This document shows positions 35 through 61,981 of a stretch of 64,000 nucleotides of DNA, one piece after another. A program made the translations under genes and the position numbers. Below the pieces are notes generated by a model. That model saw nothing but the letters and a program-made list of their open reading frames with translations. It was not told the origin of the DNA and did no database searches. Positions within the stretch are counted from its first letter, which is position 1. Every line of letters starts with the position of its first letter. Source of the stretch: a virus. The stretch covers positions 62,001 to 126,000 of the IMG/VR virus record IMGVR_UViG_3300046642_000884. One strand, given 5' to 3'.

Positions 35-111
35 TGGTAGGGCGACGGGGATTCGAACCCCGGTTTCACAGTTTGAAGGACTGTTTTCCTGGACCGCTAG
101 AAGACCGCCCC
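35..111 (-). tRNA. tRNA-Glu (anticodon TTC)
   Basis: Cloverleaf on the minus strand: acceptor GGGGCGG/TCGCCCT with two G:U pairs, D stem TTCT/AGGA, anticodon stem ACAGT/ACTGT with loop CCTTCAA (anticodon TTC), T arm CGGGG-TTCGAAT-CCCCG, discriminator A and encoded CCA. Position 33 is C rather than the usual U. It is the leftmost of a five-tRNA cluster. Confidence 0.85.
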
Positions 112-433
112 ATTAACGAACGTTTTGCTGCTTGACTTTACAAACACCTGTTCTTTCACAGGAGGACCGTCCGTCCTAGACCATTATTTGTATCAACGCG
201 ATAGTCAGGCGCACTAGGTGATTTCGTGTGGGCCGCTTTTACGTGTTAGCTTCCGCCGGCCTTTAGGGCCTTACCCACAGCACACGTCATTCGGGATAAT
301 CTCAGAGTGCACTCGGGATAATCTCAGAGTGCACTATCCGCAACTATCCTACATTGAACTTCTACGACTTTTATTTTTTGGTCGAAAGCTAGAAACGACA
401 GGACGACCTCATTACCCCGAGGCCGGTGGGGGT
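112..433. other. non-coding gap within tRNA cluster
   Basis: No gene with a ribosome binding site and no further tRNA T-arm is visible here. The only evident structure is the tandem 22-bp repeat listed separately. It may be a tRNA spacer or carry an unrecognised small RNA. Confidence 0.5.
291..334. repeat. tandem 22-bp direct repeat, two copies
   Basis: Two identical head-to-tail 22-bp units occupy 291-312 and 313-334, and a partial third start (TATCC) follows. The repeat lies between tRNA genes. It could come from replication slippage or be a protein-binding iteron; two copies are too few to decide. Confidence 0.85.
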
Positions 434-508
434 TGGCACCGGAGGTAGGAATCGAACCCACTGCGCGCGGTATTGGAAGCCGCCGTTCTGCCAATGAACT
501 ACACCGGT
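434..508 (-). tRNA. tRNA-Trp (anticodon CCA), some doubt
   Basis: Acceptor ACCGGTG/CTCCGGT with one U:U mismatch, D arm GTTC-ATTGGCA-GAAC, T arm GTGGG-TTCGATT-CCTAC, discriminator G and encoded CCA. The best anticodon stem is GCGGC/ACCGC with a C31:A39 mismatch and loop TTCCAAT, giving anticodon CCA (Trp); G73 also fits Trp. A one-base shift would read TCC (Gly) but leaves no stem. Confidence 0.7.
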
Positions 509-512
509 ATAT

Positions 513-589
513 TGGCTCCCATCGTAGGATTCGAACCTACCACGATCTGATTAACAGTCAGGTTCACACACCTAGTGCGATTGATGGGA
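513..589 (-). tRNA. tRNA-Asn (anticodon GTT)
   Basis: Perfect acceptor TCCCATC/GATGGGA, anticodon loop CTGTTAA (anticodon GTT), T arm GTAGG-TTCGAAT-CCTAC, discriminator G and encoded CCA. Confidence 0.9.
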
Positions 590-596
590 ATAATCT

Positions 597-671
597 TGGT
601 GCCGGAAGGAGGAATCGAACCTCCATACCTCGCTTACAAGGCGAGACCTCTACCATTAAGGCTATACCGGC
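597..671 (-). tRNA. tRNA-Thr (anticodon TGT)
   Basis: Acceptor GCCGGTA/TTCCGGC with a U:U mismatch at pair 6:67, anticodon stem CTCGC/GCGAG with loop CTTGTAA (TGT), T arm GGAGG-TTCGATT-CCTCC, and A73 followed by encoded CCA. Confidence 0.9.
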
Positions 672-839
672 GAATATCTTTCCCTCAATGATCTTGATGC
701 TATCTCTGACCCTGCCTAGTGGGATAAGAAGGTGTCACGGGACGTAAAGACACCACCTTGCCTCCGATTGGCGATTTGTCGGTTAGGGGAGCATTTGCGC
801 TTCATGCCGCCGACAAGCCTGCTACAAAACTTATATATT
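672..839. other. spacer in tRNA cluster, no gene seen
   Basis: No supported ORF. A 7-bp inverted repeat (TTGTCGG...CCGACAA, about 776-817) could fold into an imperfect stem-loop in the tRNA precursor transcript. Confidence 0.4.
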
Positions 840-915
840 TGGTGCCACCGGACAGATTTGGACTGTCTTTTCAGCTTTACGAAGGCTGTACATCACCAGA
901 AATGCTTCAGGTGGC
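840..915 (-). tRNA. atypical tRNA, probably tRNA-Thr (anticodon CGT)
   Basis: 76 nt including CCA. Acceptor GCCACCT/CGGTGGC (the seventh pair is mismatched), T arm GACAG-TCCAAAT-CTGTC with a degenerate T loop, anticodon stem CAGCC/AGCTG with C31:A39 mismatch and loop TTCGTAA (CGT). The D stem GCAT/ATGT needs an extra linker base. It may be functional or decaying. Confidence 0.6.
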
Positions 916-1277: not shown

Positions 1278-1808
1278 ATGGTTGTAAAGAATACTGAGGC
1301 TGCATTATCGCTTATAATAAAATGGGAAGGCCCCGAGGTTAATCGTTCCTCGACAGAACCGGGAGGAATATCCAAGTATGGTATCTCACTTCAGACCTAT
1401 GCTGACTTCTGTAAGAAAAACGCTTTGCCAGTTCCTACCATGGACGATATCGCAGCGTTTACCGAGCTACAAGCTCGAGATTTTTATTCGAACTCGTTTC
1501 TCCCATCTATAAGATTTAACGATCTTCCGTCAGGAGTGGATGTTCGTCTGGTTGATATCGCAATAAATCTTGGAGTAACTGGAGCAATTAATATTCTGGA
1601 AATGGTGTTGCTGCAATGGCCGCTCACCGGACACATAACTGATGACCTAATAAAAATGATAAATAGTTATGATGCTAAGTGTATAGTGTTAGCTTTATCC
1701 GCCGCGTATATTTCCAATAAACACACAAAACCTACGTGGATAACATTTGGACACGGATGGACTAATCGAAATATTGATGGAACTCAAAAATGTTTAGCCT
1801 TGGTATAA
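1278..1808 (+). CDS. endolysin, GH108-type N-acetylmuramidase
   Basis: 176 residues. The N-terminus (IIKWEGPEVNR, then EPGGISKYGIS) matches the lysozyme-like muramidase family GH108, whose usual form is hEGGYvnnpaDpGGaTkyGIt with the catalytic Glu in the first motif, here E17. The C-terminal half fits the accompanying peptidoglycan-binding region (from LVDIAINLGVTGA). It would cleave the glycan strands at lysis. There is no signal peptide, so a holin or equivalent is needed. First gene of a rightward cassette, followed 4 nt later by an M15 peptidase. Confidence 0.8.
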   Translation: MVVKNTEAALSLIIKWEGPEVNRSSTEPGGISKYGISLQTYADFCKKNALPVPTMDDIAAFTELQARDFYSNSFLPSIRFNDLPSGVDVRLVDIAINLGVTGAINILEMVLLQWPLTGHITDDLIKMINSYDAKCIVLALSAAYISNKHTKPTWITFGHGWTNRNIDGTQKCLALV

Positions 1809-1812
1809 AAAA

Positions 1813-2334
1813 ATGATATTCAAACGCCACCGTAAACTCGCAACAGCTCCACAATGGCCGCGACAAAGCGATTGTATCTCATACTATGGCGATCCTCGTG
1901 GTGAAAACGGTCACTATAATCCAACCTGGGCGGCTAACCATCTTGTTCATGTTCATTGTCCCTGGGCGCTCTATATGGGTGAACAAGCAGTCCCGTATAT
2001 CATTATTCACAAGCGATGTGCCGACTCTCTAACCCGAGTTCTTAACAACATATGGAGCGATTGTGGCCAGAGCCAAGATGTAATCGATAAGCATAAGTAT
2101 TCGATCTATGACGGGTCATTTAACTATCGACCGAAACGGGGCGGCAGTTCTTTATCGATGCACGCCTTCGGAGTCGCAATAGACTGGGATGCCGAGGACA
2201 ATGCGTTCCATTCACAACATCATTTATTTCAATCAGGTGATATCATTGTAAAGCGATTTGAGGAAGAAGGTTGGTCGTGGGGCGGACGTTGGGGAAGTCC
2301 TGACGCGATGCATATGCAGGCCGCAAGAGTCTAA
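1813..2334 (+). CDS. M15 family D-Ala-D-Ala peptidase-like endolysin
   Basis: 173 residues. The motifs SMHAFGVAIDWD and DAMHMQ give the zinc ligands (His, Asp, His) of the VanY/M15 peptidases, which cut peptidoglycan stem peptides. The N-terminus is basic and aromatic with no export signal. With the muramidase just upstream, the phage has two lysins attacking different peptidoglycan bonds. Confidence 0.8.
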   Translation: MIFKRHRKLATAPQWPRQSDCISYYGDPRGENGHYNPTWAANHLVHVHCPWALYMGEQAVPYIIIHKRCADSLTRVLNNIWSDCGQSQDVIDKHKYSIYDGSFNYRPKRGGSSLSMHAFGVAIDWDAEDNAFHSQHHLFQSGDIIVKRFEEEGWSWGGRWGSPDAMHMQAARV

Positions 2335-2568
2335 ATGAAAATAATCAAGTCTCCCAACAAACGAAAAACTCGAGCTAGTGCATTAGATAATATTGTCCCA
2401 CGGCTTGAACAAGTCATTAATAATATACGACAACAACATCAATTACGAGCAATCTATTTTATTCCGGATTGGTATCTTAATCTATCAATACCCCCACAGG
2501 ACCTAGCAACCCTCCGAGATGCTATCGATTTGATAAAAGACCTAACAGACTATAAGGAAAAAAATTGA
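2335..2568 (+). CDS. hypothetical protein in lysis cassette
   Basis: 77 residues, basic N-terminus, then predicted helices. The ATG follows the preceding stop directly and its own stop overlaps the TTG start of the next gene (TTGA), indicating translational coupling. No family recognised. Confidence 0.6.
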   Translation: MKIIKSPNKRKTRASALDNIVPRLEQVINNIRQQHQLRAIYFIPDWYLNLSIPPQDLATLRDAIDLIKDLTDYKEKN

Positions 2569-3020
2569 GCTACAACTATTCTCTAATCACTGAAAGACTT
2601 TTCTGCGGAGCACAAATCAATTCTGATGCAGATTTTGACGAACTTAAGGCTGCCGGAGTAACCCACATTATTGACGCGCAGGCTGAACGAGACGACAACG
2701 TTTTCGAACCGAAAAATATGATCGGACTCACAATTCTTTGGGACCCCCAACAAGACGACGGTCAACATCCAAAACCTGTTGAATGGTTCAAAAACGCCGT
2801 TGAATTTGGGATTGGAGCCTTGAAGTTTCCTGGAACAATAGTCCTCACACACTGTGCCGCAGGTTACAACAGGGGACCATCACTGGCATATGCTATCCTA
2901 CGCGCGCAAGGATGGTCCCAAGTAGACGCCAAAGCTTTGTTACATTCAAGACGAAGTGTTGGTATTGCTTATGCAGATGACGCCGATCTGGCGTTGAAAA
3001 CTTTAGGATGGACAAAATGA
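2565..3020 (+). CDS. CX5R dual-specificity/tyrosine phosphatase-like protein
   Basis: 151 residues, starting at a TTG that overlaps the previous stop and follows AAGGA at a normal distance. HCAAGYNRGPSLAYAIL contains the CX5R signature (Cys-Ala-Ala-Gly-Tyr-Asn-Arg) of cysteine-based phosphatases, and the N-terminal LFCGAQINS...LKAAGVTHIIDA resembles the DSP fold start. The conserved Ser/Thr after the Arg is Gly here, which may slow catalysis. The substrate is unknown: host phosphoproteins, nucleotides or lipid-linked phosphates are possible. Its place in a lysis cassette is unusual. Confidence 0.75.
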   Translation: MSYNYSLITERLFCGAQINSDADFDELKAAGVTHIIDAQAERDDNVFEPKNMIGLTILWDPQQDDGQHPKPVEWFKNAVEFGIGALKFPGTIVLTHCAAGYNRGPSLAYAILRAQGWSQVDAKALLHSRRSVGIAYADDADLALKTLGWTK

Positions 3021-3253
3021 CTGACTGGACAAAAGCTGATCTGACACAAAACAAACATTTTAACGATTTGAAAACAGAAGTTCTGGAGTTAACCAACAGG
3101 TTAGATATAACAGACACTAATATATCTAACGTAAGTGAGGCAAGAGTAACTTTAGACGATAAGGTCAGCGAACTGCAAAAACTGGTGAGAGAAATGGATG
3201 ATTTCTTGTTTCAACGATTCGGCTATGGTGTGACTATCGGAGAAAAGAAATGA
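3017..3253 (+). CDS. small coiled-coil protein
   Basis: 78 residues, starting at the ATG that overlaps the previous stop (ATGA); an ATG nine bases earlier is possible. Heptad-like leucines run through residues 15-65 (LELTNRLDITDTNISNV, then DKVSELQKLVREMDDFL). Similar short coiled-coil proteins occur elsewhere in this genome. Function unknown. Confidence 0.6.
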   Translation: MTDWTKADLTQNKHFNDLKTEVLELTNRLDITDTNISNVSEARVTLDDKVSELQKLVREMDDFLFQRFGYGVTIGEKK

Positions 3254-3825
3254 CCTCACATGTAACTTTTATCTATCTATTAGGAATGGGCGGAATGATG
3301 TTCGAAACACCAGGAGGCGCTATCACAATCCGCCGAAAGGTCAATGCGCTACACGGCACCTATTGTCCGCTCTTACTAGAATATACGGATCAGGACAAAG
3401 CAGCGGCTCTTATAAGAGAGGCACATCCTGATGAAAAAATTATGCTCGCGGGGGATTCGTGTGGAGGAAATAGAATTGCCTATGTGGCTGCAGCCGTTTA
3501 TCCTCGGCCCATCGAGTATATGGCTGTTATTAATGCCTCGATGTGGTGTAATCTCAATTGTCCCCCAGTTCCAGATAATGTAAAAGAGGTTTATGATGTA
3601 TATGGAGGCTTTCAAACCTTTGGTCTAAGCCAGTTCGAAACTCCACTACAAGTCCCTCCGCCAAAATGGGATTTCAATGATGGTAAAAATCGAATCGGAG
3701 TTGGTAATCACGGGAAAACCAAGATTACCTATAAATATGTAGACGCGCCTCATCCTGACGATTGGGACGTAATCCATGTTCATGATCCAATTGTGGAAAA
3801 AGCTAAGGAGCTAATAGCAAGCTAA
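3250..3825 (+). CDS. alpha/beta-hydrolase-like protein (GXSXG)
   Basis: 191 residues; the start overlaps the previous stop (ATGA). AGDSCGGNRIAYVAA has the nucleophile elbow Gly-Asp-Ser-Cys-Gly after a beta strand (KIMLAG). Candidate acid and His residues lie in the C-terminal part (PHPDDWDVIHVHDP). This fits a small esterase or lipase fold. In the lysis cassette it could act on envelope lipids or esters, as LysB does in mycobacteriophages, but that role is only inferred. Confidence 0.6.
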   Translation: MTSHVTFIYLLGMGGMMFETPGGAITIRRKVNALHGTYCPLLLEYTDQDKAAALIREAHPDEKIMLAGDSCGGNRIAYVAAAVYPRPIEYMAVINASMWCNLNCPPVPDNVKEVYDVYGGFQTFGLSQFETPLQVPPPKWDFNDGKNRIGVGNHGKTKITYKYVDAPHPDDWDVIHVHDPIVEKAKELIAS

Positions 3826-3826
3826 A

Positions 3827-4345
3827 ATGGCAAAAAAGAAGAAGAAACAAAAGAAAGATAACTTAAAACAGATACTAGCAAAGCCTTCATACGTGGATGA
3901 ACCATACACATATTCCGATGATTATGATTACAAGCCGGGCGATAAAGTTAAGTCAGCAGTAAAACTGCCATATGAGCAATATCCCGTCAAAGAACTGCAA
4001 AATCCCCATGTCGTCGGTATCTCTCTTCTTATAATCCTTTTGATTGGCTTAGCGTTGGCTGTTGTCGGATATTTCCACACACCTAATCCACCGACACCAA
4101 CTCCAACGCCTCCGGTAGTCGTCACGCCCGCTCCGGTTGTAAAGCCTCCGGTGGTTGCGCCGGTCAATCCAACACCACAAACTACCATTCCGGGATATGA
4201 CTCGCATGGTCAGCTTGTCGAAACTCCATATAATGATCCAGACCATTCTGGTCATCATTTACGCTGGCGTTTAGAAAATGGAGCTAAGCATTATTTCTGG
4301 CGGGACAGTCAAGGAAAACGGCATTGGTGGCCTGATGAAAAGTAA
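3827..4345 (+). CDS. bitopic membrane protein with Pro-rich stalk
   Basis: 172 residues. Lys-rich N-terminus (cytoplasmic), one transmembrane helix at about 62-82, a Pro/Thr/Val stalk at about 85-117, and a C-terminal domain rich in His and Trp. This N-in topology with a periplasmic domain fits an inner-membrane spanin or other lysis accessory. It is immediately downstream of the hydrolase. Confidence 0.65.
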   Translation: MAKKKKKQKKDNLKQILAKPSYVDEPYTYSDDYDYKPGDKVKSAVKLPYEQYPVKELQNPHVVGISLLIILLIGLALAVVGYFHTPNPPTPTPTPPVVVTPAPVVKPPVVAPVNPTPQTTIPGYDSHGQLVETPYNDPDHSGHHLRWRLENGAKHYFWRDSQGKRHWWPDEK

Positions 4346-4568: not shown

Positions 4569-4927
4569 CGTCTTGCATGCTTTCTCTTGTGTCGAGCCTT
4601 TCTGATATGAGAGCCAACCTTCCGGCGTCCCTTACGTTTCCCTTTATGCGGATGAGGCACTTTCTTTCTCCTTGTTTTACTTGAACTAGAACCCCCAGCA
4701 CCGCCACCCCATAATTCGGGACATTCAGTCTTTTGATGAGCAACTATGTCGGCAACAGCATCCTTTATGAGTTTATTAGTCTCTCTATAATCATGATTTG
4801 GGAGTAAGCGTCCTTCCATTCGAGGAATGTTAAATTTATCATCGTCATCTGGCCAATGCGTATGATGCCAATGATCGTGTTCAGGCTGGCCTCTTTTGAA
4901 TAGGTTTTTAAGCCAGGTAAAGATCAT
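4565..4927 (-). CDS. hypothetical protein, acidic/His N-terminus and strongly basic tail
   Basis: 120 residues. A His/Asp-rich segment (residues 16-32), then a Gly/Ser linker and a very basic Lys/Arg/His C-terminus from about residue 83. The tail suggests nucleic-acid or polyanion binding. Its ATG overlaps the stop of a 10-codon mini-ORF (ATGA). Confidence 0.55.
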   Translation of the reverse strand: MIFTWLKNLFKRGQPEHDHWHHTHWPDDDDKFNIPRMEGRLLPNHDYRETNKLIKDAVADIVAHQKTECPELWGGGAGGSSSSKTRRKKVPHPHKGKRKGRRKVGSHIRKARHKRKHARR

Positions 4928-4956
4928 ATTGTTTTATATTCTTCCATATCTTTCAT
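4924..4956 (-). CDS. 10-residue mini-ORF coupled to the next gene
   Basis: Encodes MKDMEEYKTI, after AAGGATTAACG, with its TGA overlapping the following ATG. The peptide resembles KDVEEYKT near the C-terminus of the coiled-coil protein at 5392-5604, so it looks like the trimmed end of a duplicated copy, or a leader that couples translation. Confidence 0.4.
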   Translation of the reverse strand: MKDMEEYKTI

Positions 4957-4958
4957 CG

Positions 4959-5267
4959 TTAATCCTTCATGACTGATAGATCAGCAAGGAACTCTTTTGC
5001 TTCCTTGCAAACATCATTTAGCGGGTCGCCATCCCAATCTTCCGGCAGGCTCCCGCCGCTCAGCTTCCTCATCCTGTCGGCTGTGTCTAGCCTCGCGCGT
5101 TCTCGTTTTCGCTCGTTTTCGAGGAATGAGTTGTAGACACGCTTCAGTTCCGGGGTCGCACCGCCTGATTTTTGATACGCCTCACGGACAAAGTCGCGTG
5201 CGCGCCCCGAATCGTATTGCCCTGCGTGTGGCTGTTCACTTTTCTTCTTTGGCTTGGGCTTCTTCAT
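4959..5267 (-). CDS. hypothetical basic helical protein
   Basis: 102 residues, Lys/Pro-rich N-terminus then charged helices. The start is preceded by AAGGATTAACG, the same initiation sequence found before the mini-ORF at 4956. Function unknown. Confidence 0.6.
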   Translation of the reverse strand: MKKPKPKKKSEQPHAGQYDSGRARDFVREAYQKSGGATPELKRVYNSFLENERKRERARLDTADRMRKLSGGSLPEDWDGDPLNDVCKEAKEFLADLSVMKD

Positions 5268-8887: not shown

Positions 8888-10816
8888 TTACACCTCACAG
8901 GCAACTGGCGATCCACAAGCCAACTGTTGATTGCCGGTGGTATTGTCTTCGTTCTCGTAGTTCTTGAGCAAGCTCCAATCGACCTTTAGCGGAACTTTTT
9001 TCATCAGGTTCTTATATTCGTCTTCGTTTATCTCTTGATACGGCGCTTGTCGATATAAGTGTTCAGTAAACGGCAGGAACGCAGTCCCCCCAAGCTCATC
9101 GAAGTTGTCGTAAACCCAGTTGCCTACCTGGAGCCACTCGTGGTCGCGGATGGAGATGGTCGTCGAAGGGTTGTGATCGCACCAATGCTGTCGATAGGCC
9201 TTATACAACTCGAGATGCTCTATTGCCGTCAGCTCGTTCCGCGTTATGCATTTTTCAGGGGATTTGATTGGAAACGAAAACGCCACCGTGCTACCTGGAC
9301 TGTTTATCTCAGGCTCGGCTGGAAGGCCTTGCTCTATCATAAGCGCCGTCAGTGGGTCTTTTAGGTCCTGGAGAACGGTTCTGATATAATACGATGAATG
9401 GCGAGGATGGATTCCAGAAGCAGTGTTGGTGAGTTGTGATACAGTTCCAGAAGGTTTCAGACAGGTCAGTGCAGCCGAGGCATTGATCCCTAATGATTTG
9501 GCCATTGTCTTGTTGGTGTCTCTCACTATTTTGCGAAGGCCTTCTAACAGATTAGCTAGGTCTTTGCCCTTCCCATTGGTCAGCTTATTATCCATGATCC
9601 CAGTGAGCGACACTCCCAGCAATCGTTCCTCTTCACAGTTTTTTACCCATTGATTAGAGACATACGGGAACTTGGTAAGCGATGATTGAAAGGTGCCGAG
9701 GATGGTTGCTATTATAACCTTCTCCTTCAAGTCAGTCTCTTTATCATCTGGTCGGATGATTACCTCGGTTAGATTACACAGTTGACGGGGACGCAGAATG
9801 ATTTCCCCACAAGGATTCGTTCCCCACTCGAACTCAGGATTTCTTCCGATTTCTTCACACTTTCTTTTAGCAGCATCACGATTAAATATCCCTCGTTCGC
9901 CTGACTTGGATTCAAACAACGACAACCATTCTCGCATAAAGAGGCCGATTTCTGGTTTCTCGGTGTAGACCGCTGAGTTGTTGGAGAGGCGACGGTGTGG
10001 TGTGGTCTTCCACCAATCACCAGATTTGGCGTGACGCAATCGATCGTCTGAGAGATTCGACAGCGAGATTTCAGCCGAGCGGCGCACTCCTCCTACCACT
10101 ACAACCTCTCCAATCTTACATACCAGATCATGGCATTCGAGTGAAGTCAGTTTTCGCCCGGCAGCAGCTTGAAAAAGCTGAATGGTGAACTTGAACAGTT
10201 CGTCTAATACGGCTGGACCGGAAGCTCGACCCCCCGAAGTTTTCAGAATAGAACCAGCAGGTCTGACTTTTGATAAATCCCATTTCGGAACCTGTCCGCC
10301 ATAGAGGAGGTGAATAAGCTCCTTGAATGACCTGCACCAACCTATTTTGGAATCAGCAACAGTAATAACAATATCGGAAGGGTGGAAGTCGTCGGCAATA
10401 GGAGGCAGTTGATTTACGTTTTGTCGTTCCACTGAAAAACCGACACCACAGCCGTTCATCAGCAGACACATAGTTTCATCGAATGCGGTCACTCGATCAA
10501 TGGGAAGATAGGAGCAATTATAGCCGCAAAGATTGCTTCGCTCTAGTGAAGGTCCGGCACTCGTCAAAGCTCGCATTGACGGCATTACATTCAAGCGAAG
10601 CACTGCTCCTTCTAGATATTCTCTAGTTTCATCATTGAGATTATAACCACAGACCTCCTTCAGGTGTATCTTGAAAAAATCGAAGTATCTCGCAACAGTT
10701 TCCGGCCAAATTTCTCTTCGCCCTTCTTCGTGTTTGAACCGTGAATATCTTGAAAGGTAAATAAACTCCTGAAAAAGTGTAATGTCTTTATTAATATTTT
10801 CAGAAGTGAAGGGCAT
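8888..10816 (-). CDS. adenosylcobalamin-dependent ribonucleoside-triphosphate reductase (class II)
   Basis: 642 residues, a compact monomeric class II enzyme. Visible features: Cys97 after the SLERSNLCGYN region, NPCGEI at 334-339 holding the thiyl-radical Cys and the Glu, Cys347, and a C-terminal CGSPVAC pair of the type that relays electrons. It converts NTPs to dNTPs with coenzyme B12, so it needs host cobalamin and works with or without oxygen. No thioredoxin or glutaredoxin gene is visible here. Upstream are a TATAAT at 10852-10857 with a poor -35 and an AGAGGA site. Confidence 0.92.
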   Translation of the reverse strand: MPFTSENINKDITLFQEFIYLSRYSRFKHEEGRREIWPETVARYFDFFKIHLKEVCGYNLNDETREYLEGAVLRLNVMPSMRALTSAGPSLERSNLCGYNCSYLPIDRVTAFDETMCLLMNGCGVGFSVERQNVNQLPPIADDFHPSDIVITVADSKIGWCRSFKELIHLLYGGQVPKWDLSKVRPAGSILKTSGGRASGPAVLDELFKFTIQLFQAAAGRKLTSLECHDLVCKIGEVVVVGGVRRSAEISLSNLSDDRLRHAKSGDWWKTTPHRRLSNNSAVYTEKPEIGLFMREWLSLFESKSGERGIFNRDAAKRKCEEIGRNPEFEWGTNPCGEIILRPRQLCNLTEVIIRPDDKETDLKEKVIIATILGTFQSSLTKFPYVSNQWVKNCEEERLLGVSLTGIMDNKLTNGKGKDLANLLEGLRKIVRDTNKTMAKSLGINASAALTCLKPSGTVSQLTNTASGIHPRHSSYYIRTVLQDLKDPLTALMIEQGLPAEPEINSPGSTVAFSFPIKSPEKCITRNELTAIEHLELYKAYRQHWCDHNPSTTISIRDHEWLQVGNWVYDNFDELGGTAFLPFTEHLYRQAPYQEINEDEYKNLMKKVPLKVDWSLLKNYENEDNTTGNQQLACGSPVACEV

Positions 10817-60702: not shown

Positions 60703-61775
60703 TCTGACTCTGCTTCATGATATAACTTGACTAACAAAGAGTCGAGCTTTGCAACATCTACAATATTGTTGGCCTGGGCTGCGAACTCCCTAATGATATC
60801 GAGAGTAGACTTAGTTGACGACACAATATTGGCGTCATCGGTTAGGTTTAGATTCAGATGATCCTCGACTACCGTGATGGATAGTGGCTGCGCGGTTTCA
60901 ACTTTATCCATAAACGAATCATACTGGGCCGCATCATTCTTGCCCGATACTACAACCTTGATGATCTTGTTGTTGAGTGATTGAAAACCTCCAGCCGGAA
61001 GCGTTGGTTCACCCTTTGCATCATCATACCATACTTTGCGAAACACCGTGAACGGGTTCTTGATAAACTTCATCCCTCTGGTTTCAGTATCGAAGATATG
61101 GAAGCCGTGATCTTCTCCATCGTCGCCCCAGGCGAATTCGGCGTGACTGCCCACATAATAGATATTCTCCTTGAACGAGCGGTGATGGAAATGTCCAGTC
61201 AACACCACATCGAACTTGGAGAAGACAGATGAGGATAGTCCTTCATGGGAGATGTCTCCTCGATGTCGTTCGAAGTTTTGTAGTTCAAGATGACCAAATA
61301 ATATCTGGGCCTTAGTGTCCCGGATCGTTTTCATTATCTGTTCGCGATTGCTATCGATTATCCACGGCACGAATAGGATAGGAACATCGAAATGATCCGA
61401 AAACATTACTTCGGTGGCTTTATCATAGGATCGAAAGGTTGGTGCTGGACTGTCGCCAGGAAGAAAAAGTTTCGCCGCGTGGATATCTGTAACATTTCTA
61501 TAGAAGATATCATGATTGCCTAAAATCCAATCAAATGATCTACAGTATCTAGCAGCAGGAAATAACAAATCCTGCTGCAAATAATCTGCGACCAGATATG
61601 AAATAGACTTCCGGCGTTCAACTAGATCGCCAAGACATACAATCCGATTGATTTCGTTCTTTTGTAAATAGGGCCAAAAAATTTCCCTAAAGAACCTACG
61701 ATTGTTCTCTAAAAACGGAAGATATTCACCACGAGCGCCGTAGTGAATATCACTGATGATCGCAAGTTTTACCAC
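60699..61775 (-). CDS. 47: recombination nuclease subunit gp47 (SbcD/Mre11-like)
   Basis: 358 residues. AIISDIHYGARG (D-x-H), VCLGDLVERRK, WILGNHDIFY, LFGHLELQ and TGHFHHRS form the Mre11 metal-binding set. ATGA-coupled to gp46. Confidence 0.93.
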   Translation of the reverse strand: MVKLAIISDIHYGARGEYLPFLENNRRFFREIFWPYLQKNEINRIVCLGDLVERRKSISYLVADYLQQDLLFPAARYCRSFDWILGNHDIFYRNVTDIHAAKLFLPGDSPAPTFRSYDKATEVMFSDHFDVPILFVPWIIDSNREQIMKTIRDTKAQILFGHLELQNFERHRGDISHEGLSSSVFSKFDVVLTGHFHHRSFKENIYYVGSHAEFAWGDDGEDHGFHIFDTETRGMKFIKNPFTVFRKVWYDDAKGEPTLPAGGFQSLNNKIIKVVVSGKNDAAQYDSFMDKVETAQPLSITVVEDHLNLNLTDDANIVSSTKSTLDIIREFAAQANNIVDVAKLDSLLVKLYHEAESE

Positions 61776-61981
61776 TTTATTTTACTTATTCGGTGTGCTT
61801 CTTTTCTGGACTGATAATATTTGTCCAGAACCATTTCGCAATACTGCTTGATGCTTTCGAGTCGTTGGGCATAGCTTTCACGAACTTCGGGAGTGTTGCC
61901 CAGATTATTCAGTTGCATCACGTGATCCATTATTAGCGTTGGAACCTGATGGATTTTATTTTGATCGAAAACGCGGGGCAT
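61769..61981 (-). CDS. conserved phage hypothetical protein
   Basis: 70 residues from the ATG after AGAGGAACAAAAT. RLESIKQYCEMVLDKYYQSRKEA resembles a small helical family next to gp47 in T4-like phages. Overlaps gp47 by 7 nt. Confidence 0.6.
   Translation of the reverse strand: MPRVFDQNKIHQVPTLIMDHVMQLNNLGNTPEVRESYAQRLESIKQYCEMVLDKYYQSRKEAHRISKIKW

Follow-up and report, generated by a model that had tools for sequence, protein, structure and literature searches.

What are a phosphatase and a lipase-like hydrolase doing in a run of phage genes that begins with two endolysins? The window, by which we mean the whole stretch of 64,000 nucleotides that was analysed, corresponds to bases 62001-126000 of a virus record of 184,965 bases, and its plus-strand run at 1278-4345 contains the following, in order.

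1278..1808, plus strand: GH108 muramidase-type endolysin, 176 aa (Pfam PF05838, 1.1e-12; PHROG 315 endolysin, 3.5e-19)
1813..2334, plus strand: M15 peptidase endolysin, 173 aa (Pfam PF13539, 1.2e-11; PHROG 17001 endolysin, 3.9e-21)
2335..2568, plus strand: 77-aa ORF, function not assigned (no Pfam match; best PHROG match 0.33)
2565..3020, plus strand: dual-specificity-type phosphatase of the HCAAGxNRGP family, 151 aa (Pfam DSPc, 1.4e-9)
3017..3253 (longest start 3008), plus strand: coiled-coil-like ORF, 78-81 aa (weak coiled-coil matches only)
3250..3825, plus strand: predicted compact alpha/beta-hydrolase, 191 aa, with Ser70 in GDSCG and His168 in HPDDW (AlphaFold2, VIA, alignment A7)
3827..4345, plus strand: bitopic protein with a basic N-terminus, one transmembrane segment, a Pro-rich linker and a C-terminal domain (hydropathy)

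The original prediction had placed a CX5R phosphatase and a GDSCG hydrolase past the lysins and before a protein with a single transmembrane segment, and the ORFs and motifs confirm this arrangement. It had also described the two genes as translationally coupled. Start and stop codons do overlap at 2565 (TTGA, with the end of the 77-aa ORF, which sits between the M15 and phosphatase genes) and at 3250 (ATGA), and probably also at 3017 (ATGA), the start that we prefer over 3008 owing to this overlap; however, the 81-aa coiled-coil ORF lies between the two enzymes, so that they share one coupled run yet are not direct neighbours. No counterpart of the coiled-coil ORF was recovered at any other locus, and the bitopic protein, with its single hydrophobic segment at 62-80, had no match among 50,697 deposited phages. 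The GH108 gene is the sole GH108 match in the entire record. By eye, the enzymes of the run lack a signal peptide, and all of them would therefore need a holin to exit the cell. A search for a defence role with the PADLOC-DB models gave no match for the four proteins tested.

By its sequence, the phage is a member of the T4 superfamily: it carries the DNA polymerase, UvsX, sliding clamp and clamp loader of that superfamily (PHROG matches), and a sequence search found relatives of the polymerase in cyanomyoviruses at approximately 40% identity. The closest named phages with a similar M15 enzyme include those of Rhizobium, Aminobacter and Rhodobacter; Flavobacterium phages form the majority of the 98 records, out of 50,697 deposited phage records, that match M15. 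The B12-dependent ribonucleotide reductase (window 8888-10816, minus strand; PHROG 367, 1.2e-167) is closest, among the matches listed, to those of Puniceispirillum, Roseobacter and Sinorhizobium phages. Taken together, the M15 and reductase relatives make an alphaproteobacterial host likely. Five tRNA genes (Glu, Trp, Asn, Thr and Thr; window 35-915, minus strand) lie directly before the lysis run, and a further tRNA-Gln is found at window 44411.

The hydrolase ORF is not due to chance, because a viral contig (L001) encodes a relative that is 61% identical to it over 190 residues, better kept between these two phages than GH108 (54%) or M15 (52%), in a cluster that also contains genes for GH108, an amidase and M15. 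A few genes from that cluster, L001 also encodes a second alpha/beta-hydrolase of a different type (4672-5250, minus strand; GHSSG; Lipase_3 0.002). Patterns made from the window hydrolase, or from the window and L001 together, found no locus but L001 in viral contigs and none at all in genome contigs; a third member, L023, was reached through the phosphatase search, on the contig behind the phosphatase locus L009. With L023 as first query, 76 stretches matched the pattern, 14 of which encode hydrolase relatives, and 13 loci were returned. Merging near-identical matches or proteins (L035 with L023; L038-L041; L043/L044; L046/L047) reduced these to eight lineages, and the hydrolase is found in ten distinct viral lineages (the window, L001, L023, L036, L037, L038, L042, L043, L045 and L046); another scan, with 14 loci returned, added no lineage. 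Direct comparison of L023 with the window and L001 proteins is weak (hhalign probability 8.9, E 0.0037; BLASTP of the C-terminal part of L023 likewise weak), and we regard them as homologous because of bridging sequences, L042 being matched at 5e-11 by the window query and at 1e-22 by the L023 query.

In tblastn searches of the 50,697 deposited phages, no hydrolase match was obtained with the window (E limit 0.01), L023 (1) or L042 (0.1) queries, and the L042 query found none in 72,556 plasmids. The window hydrolase had no NCBIfam match and, in Pfam, only sub-threshold matches to general alpha/beta-hydrolase families, while those of the window, L036, L043 and L046 had no meaningful PHROG match. 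We therefore treat the hydrolase as a lysis-cassette family to which none of the libraries and collections that we searched gave a name: INPHARED, PLSDB, PHROGs, Pfam and NCBIfam yielded no match that names it. Because the deposited phages searched do not contain it, ordinary annotation misses it.

Across alignment A7, G68-x-S70-x-G72 is present in all ten hydrolases, and the scan patterns did not require GxSxG. H168 and D170-D171-W172 are also found in all ten, an invariance that is partly selected, as the scan pattern contained HPDDW; this bias does not apply to L023, whose contig the phosphatase search had turned up. At position 119, which would be the acid after strand 7, there is D in L023, L036, L037 and L038, N in L042, L043, L045 and L046, and G in the window and L001, and another acid, at 170 or 171, would have to serve. 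The catalytic residues of both enzymes were checked in their relatives: the Ser and His of the hydrolase and the Cys, Arg and Asp of the phosphatase are kept, but the acid site of the hydrolase varies (D, N or G). An AlphaFold2 model built with the ten sequences (pLDDT 85.2, pTM 0.85; an earlier model from two sequences, at pLDDT 39.4, was discarded) places Ser70 at the turn between strand 63-69 and a helix and His168 after strand 157-163, which we take to be where alpha/beta-hydrolases carry them. The best VIA-align match was the lipase 7q4j (Z 13.9, rmsd 3.1, 167 residues), and feruloyl esterases and monoacylglycerol lipases lie within approximately 1 Z of it, so no single family is picked out; the best Foldseek match was a cutinase-like protein (E 2e-4). 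The model thus predicts an alpha/beta-hydrolase fold; a shared fold does not establish function.

The placement of the hydrolase in a lysis cassette, as originally proposed, is borne out in other lineages. The gene is adjacent or fused to a peptidoglycan-hydrolase-like gene in six of the ten, as listed here, and the window and L001 bring to eight those in which the two lie within three ORFs of each other.

L023: GH108 gene 119 bp downstream of the hydrolase (tblastn, 2e-28), with M15 and phosphatase further on
L038: GH108 gene (9.6e-14) overlapping the hydrolase by 4 bp
L042: one 337-aa ORF comprising GH108 (1.8e-29) and hydrolase (one metagenome contig, in which a single indel at a TGATG overlap could produce such an ORF)
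L043: hydrolase adjoining a GH19-type endolysin (PHROG 181 endolysin, 7.5e-50; Pfam GH19 only 0.015)
L036 and L046: upstream protein, 34% and 46% identical, respectively, to a Bradyrhizobium phage protein with a C-terminal peptidoglycan-binding domain (neither Pfam nor PHROG match)

Near the hydrolases of L037 and L045, no lysin was recognised. Small transmembrane ORFs follow it in L036, L038, L042 and L046, that of L042 scoring 26.1 against the Phage_holin_10 cut-off of 27, and in L045 a 58-aa ORF with two hydrophobic segments overlaps its start; transmembrane or holin-like genes are therefore found before or after the hydrolase in several lineages. A few genes behind the hydrolase, L046 also has two exported ORFs (8899-9351 and 9348-9755) that by eye resemble RlpA-type lytic proteins. 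The hydrolase persists while the family of the lysin changes, and this speaks for an independent function within the cassette.

Cassette placement and the invariant Ser together make attack on an envelope ester, as originally suggested, a sensible reading. The hydrolase is probably a dedicated lysis-cassette serine esterase that, much like LysB, cuts an ester of the envelope, in phages whose hosts are probably Gram-negative; that it is active, how it gets out, what it cuts and that it takes part in lysis are what we infer. Made without a signal peptide, as are both lysins of the run, it would build up in the cytoplasm and, once a holin opens the inner membrane, would leave together with the lysins. 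It would then cleave an acyl ester in the host envelope and so aid the final step of lysis, either because the outer membrane is removed or loosened or because an ester modification that blocks the muramidase is taken away. We advance only tentatively the more specific proposal that some Gram-negative phages break the outer membrane with an esterase that is released with the lysins and cuts an outer-membrane lipid ester, replacing or helping spanins; if true, a LysB-like third step would have arisen outside actinobacterial phages and would recur with different lysin families. Rhizobia-like hosts carry very-long-chain acyl groups and hopanoid esters on lipid A, according to one report (PMC5613085). 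That such esters are the substrate of the hydrolase is speculation.

The main rival, because the partners are often glycan-cutting lysins, is that the hydrolase is a peptidoglycan O-acetyl esterase, stripping the MurNAc acetyls that block the neighbouring muramidase; in its substrate this would be a special case of the envelope esterase, but in the step served, glycan cutting rather than the outer membrane, it competes with it. The nearest partners are indeed GH108 in L038, L042 and L023 and a GH19-type endolysin in L043, and a direct fusion with GH108, as in L042, fits a shared substrate. However, known peptidoglycan O-acetyl esterases have a different fold, SGNH, and we consider this reading unlikely. 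We think it quite unlikely that the hydrolase is instead a late accessory enzyme, for example one that degrades a signalling ester or changes the surface of a lysogen, at a site beside the lysins that tolerates cargo. The two lineages of ten in which no lysin was recognised nearby agree with this, as does the neighbouring window phosphatase, which behaves like cargo, whereas the retention of the hydrolase's place despite the change of lysin family, and the copy fused to a lysin, speak against it.

The phosphatase calls for a different answer. Its motif reads H96-C-A-A-G-Y-N-R103-G104, it scores 38.3 bits against the Pfam DSPc (PF00782) cut-off of 33.5, and the ORF is not due to chance, because locus L018 encodes a 62-63% identical relative, whose collinear N-terminus (at 63% identity) backs the TTG start. 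Patterns from the window alone and a two-sequence alignment, which missed the active-site loop, recovered no relatives. A hand-made loop pattern, HCAAGxNRxP, in which the residue after the Arg was left free, matched 18 stretches in viral contigs, and 16 of the 18 encode phosphatase relatives by tblastn, all 16 with Gly after the Arg; L007 and L020 matched the pattern but encode no relative and were rejected. In the genome contigs of 84,980 species, the pattern matched 52 stretches, of which just four encode relatives. Near-identical proteins were merged (L005/L008/L011/L016 into one and L009/L021 into one), and the 12 that were left were aligned with the window protein and the LR756511 protein, the latter found without the pattern.

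In this alignment the CX5R loop from C97 to R103 is complete in all 14 proteins, with the caveat that HCAAG, N, R and P were set by the search pattern in 12 of the 14 rows; D64, D65, G66 and G104 are invariant as well and were demanded by no pattern. One of the two aspartates D64-D65 aligns with the VHR loop, and they are presumably the general-acid Asp before the active-site loop. The original prediction had seen in the Gly after the Arg, where Ser or Thr is usual, a hint of something special. We reject it as the mark of an odd or dead phosphatase, since G104 is family-wide (14 of 14 proteins, mostly viral), and judge from the alignment that the window phosphatase is a typical representative of a subfamily found mainly in viruses.

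Most of its relatives lie outside lysis loci, and a role in lysis is therefore weakly supported. Their neighbours include, with PHROG confirmation, a terminase (L006), a head-morphogenesis/Nudix protein (L019) and a ParB-like protein (L018) and, named by eye, terminases at L013, L015 and L017 and head genes at L012. At L015 a single minor-head-like protein joins the phosphatase to a zeta-toxin kinase domain (1.4e-18), a hint that kinase and phosphatase form a pair that travels with the capsid.

L015, 2344-4602, minus strand: fusion protein, 752 aa, phosphatase at residues 323-398 and zeta-toxin kinase at 538-720

In the 595-kb phage LR756511.1 (L003, 8005-13222), by eye, the phosphatase is found amid ligase, ParB, P-loop kinase, FolD and PRPP synthase genes. 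We give roughly even chances to the reading that the phosphatase serves host takeover or acts on nucleotides or sugar phosphates, paired with a kinase and possibly virion-borne in some phages: the single protein of L015, the P-loop kinase and Prs/FolD-like genes (by eye) of LR756511 and the gene at L019, which comes after the head-morphogenesis/Nudix protein, all favour it, but the window gene has no such partner alongside and the contexts differ. A kinase-paired or host-takeover role nevertheless fits better than lysis signalling. Very unlikely, finally, is the originally suggested action in lysis signalling or on envelope phosphates, for although the Cys, the Arg and the acid of DDG are retained, the phosphatase, GH108, M15 and hydrolase co-occur in two distinct phages (the window and the L009/L023 contig) and the L017 gene is approximately 2.7 kb from a GH108 gene, the searches made found phosphatases near lysins only in the window, L009/L021 and L017, most other relatives have head, packaging, ParB-like or nucleic-acid genes as neighbours, and the 10.95-kb stretch of L001 encodes no phosphatase relative, despite having the same lysins and hydrolase. 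The phosphatase may be seen as a separate accessory enzyme of the phage that has ended up in a late operon, with no necessary part in lysis. Of the two enzymes it is the more ordinary phage passenger, and the real finding of this cassette is the hydrolase.

How phages without recognisable spanins pass the outer membrane is posed as an open question in print (PMC6139136), and a conserved esterase family beside an endolysin offers a concrete and testable candidate, which would be a new type of envelope enzyme. Among the titles and abstracts listed in searches of an open-access library, we found no such enzyme for phages of Gram-negative hosts, the sole match for a lysis-cassette beta hydrolase being a mycobacteriophage review.

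How does the cassette compare with known systems? The closest solved structures to the phosphatase by profile are VHR (1.9e-12), PRL1 (5.6e-10) and SEX4 (3.9e-7), and like VHR/DUSP3, PRL and SEX4 it has a CX5R loop and an aligned Asp. PRL and SEX4 have Ala after the Arg and VHR has Ser, in contrast to the HCAAGxNRGP family, with Gly throughout. Compared with the GH108/M15 two-lysin cassettes of other phages, the window shares the kind of M15 enzyme, whereas a hydrolase relative was found by tblastn in none of the deposited phages.

In T4 itself, spanin genes can sit outside the lysis cassette. Within the window, a crude lipobox scan detected no lipoprotein ORF, but there is a candidate of spanin-like size 151 bp ahead of the window (record 61547-61849, minus strand), and a classical spanin step may therefore exist here as well. 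At record 60943-61849 (minus strand) this ORF stands beside two small proteins with a hydrophobic segment, possibly spanin or other envelope genes. Spanins are the normal third step in phages of Gram-negative hosts; according to one survey, none was found in 91 of 677 phages, and its authors ask whether another route through the outer membrane exists (PMC6139136). Like spanins (Rz/Rz1, u-spanin), the proposed esterase would act in removing the outer membrane, but enzymatically, whereas spanins fuse membranes.

LysB is the mycolyl-arabinogalactan esterase of mycobacteriophages. It is an alpha/beta-hydrolase of the lysis module, and its loss leaves lysis incomplete, a defect of the third step, as described in two reports (PMC5707550, PMC6116114). 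No sequence family link between it and the window hydrolase was found, with no LysB among the sequence or family matches listed; the best viral Foldseek matches are unnamed or called 'hydrolase', a named Lysin B (GMA6) reaching only E 0.03, and named LysB is absent among the 50 PDB matches listed in the structure search, which has no bearing on membership. Unlike LysB, the window hydrolase has only 191 aa and no conserved acid at the usual place, and its hosts are probably Gram-negative, a mycolate host being unlikely. Like LysB, it is a predicted alpha/beta-hydrolase with a GxSxG motif, encoded in a lysis module by an endolysin, and its place beside or joined to lysins in several unrelated phages suggests that an ester-cutting enzyme helps some phages to burst their hosts.
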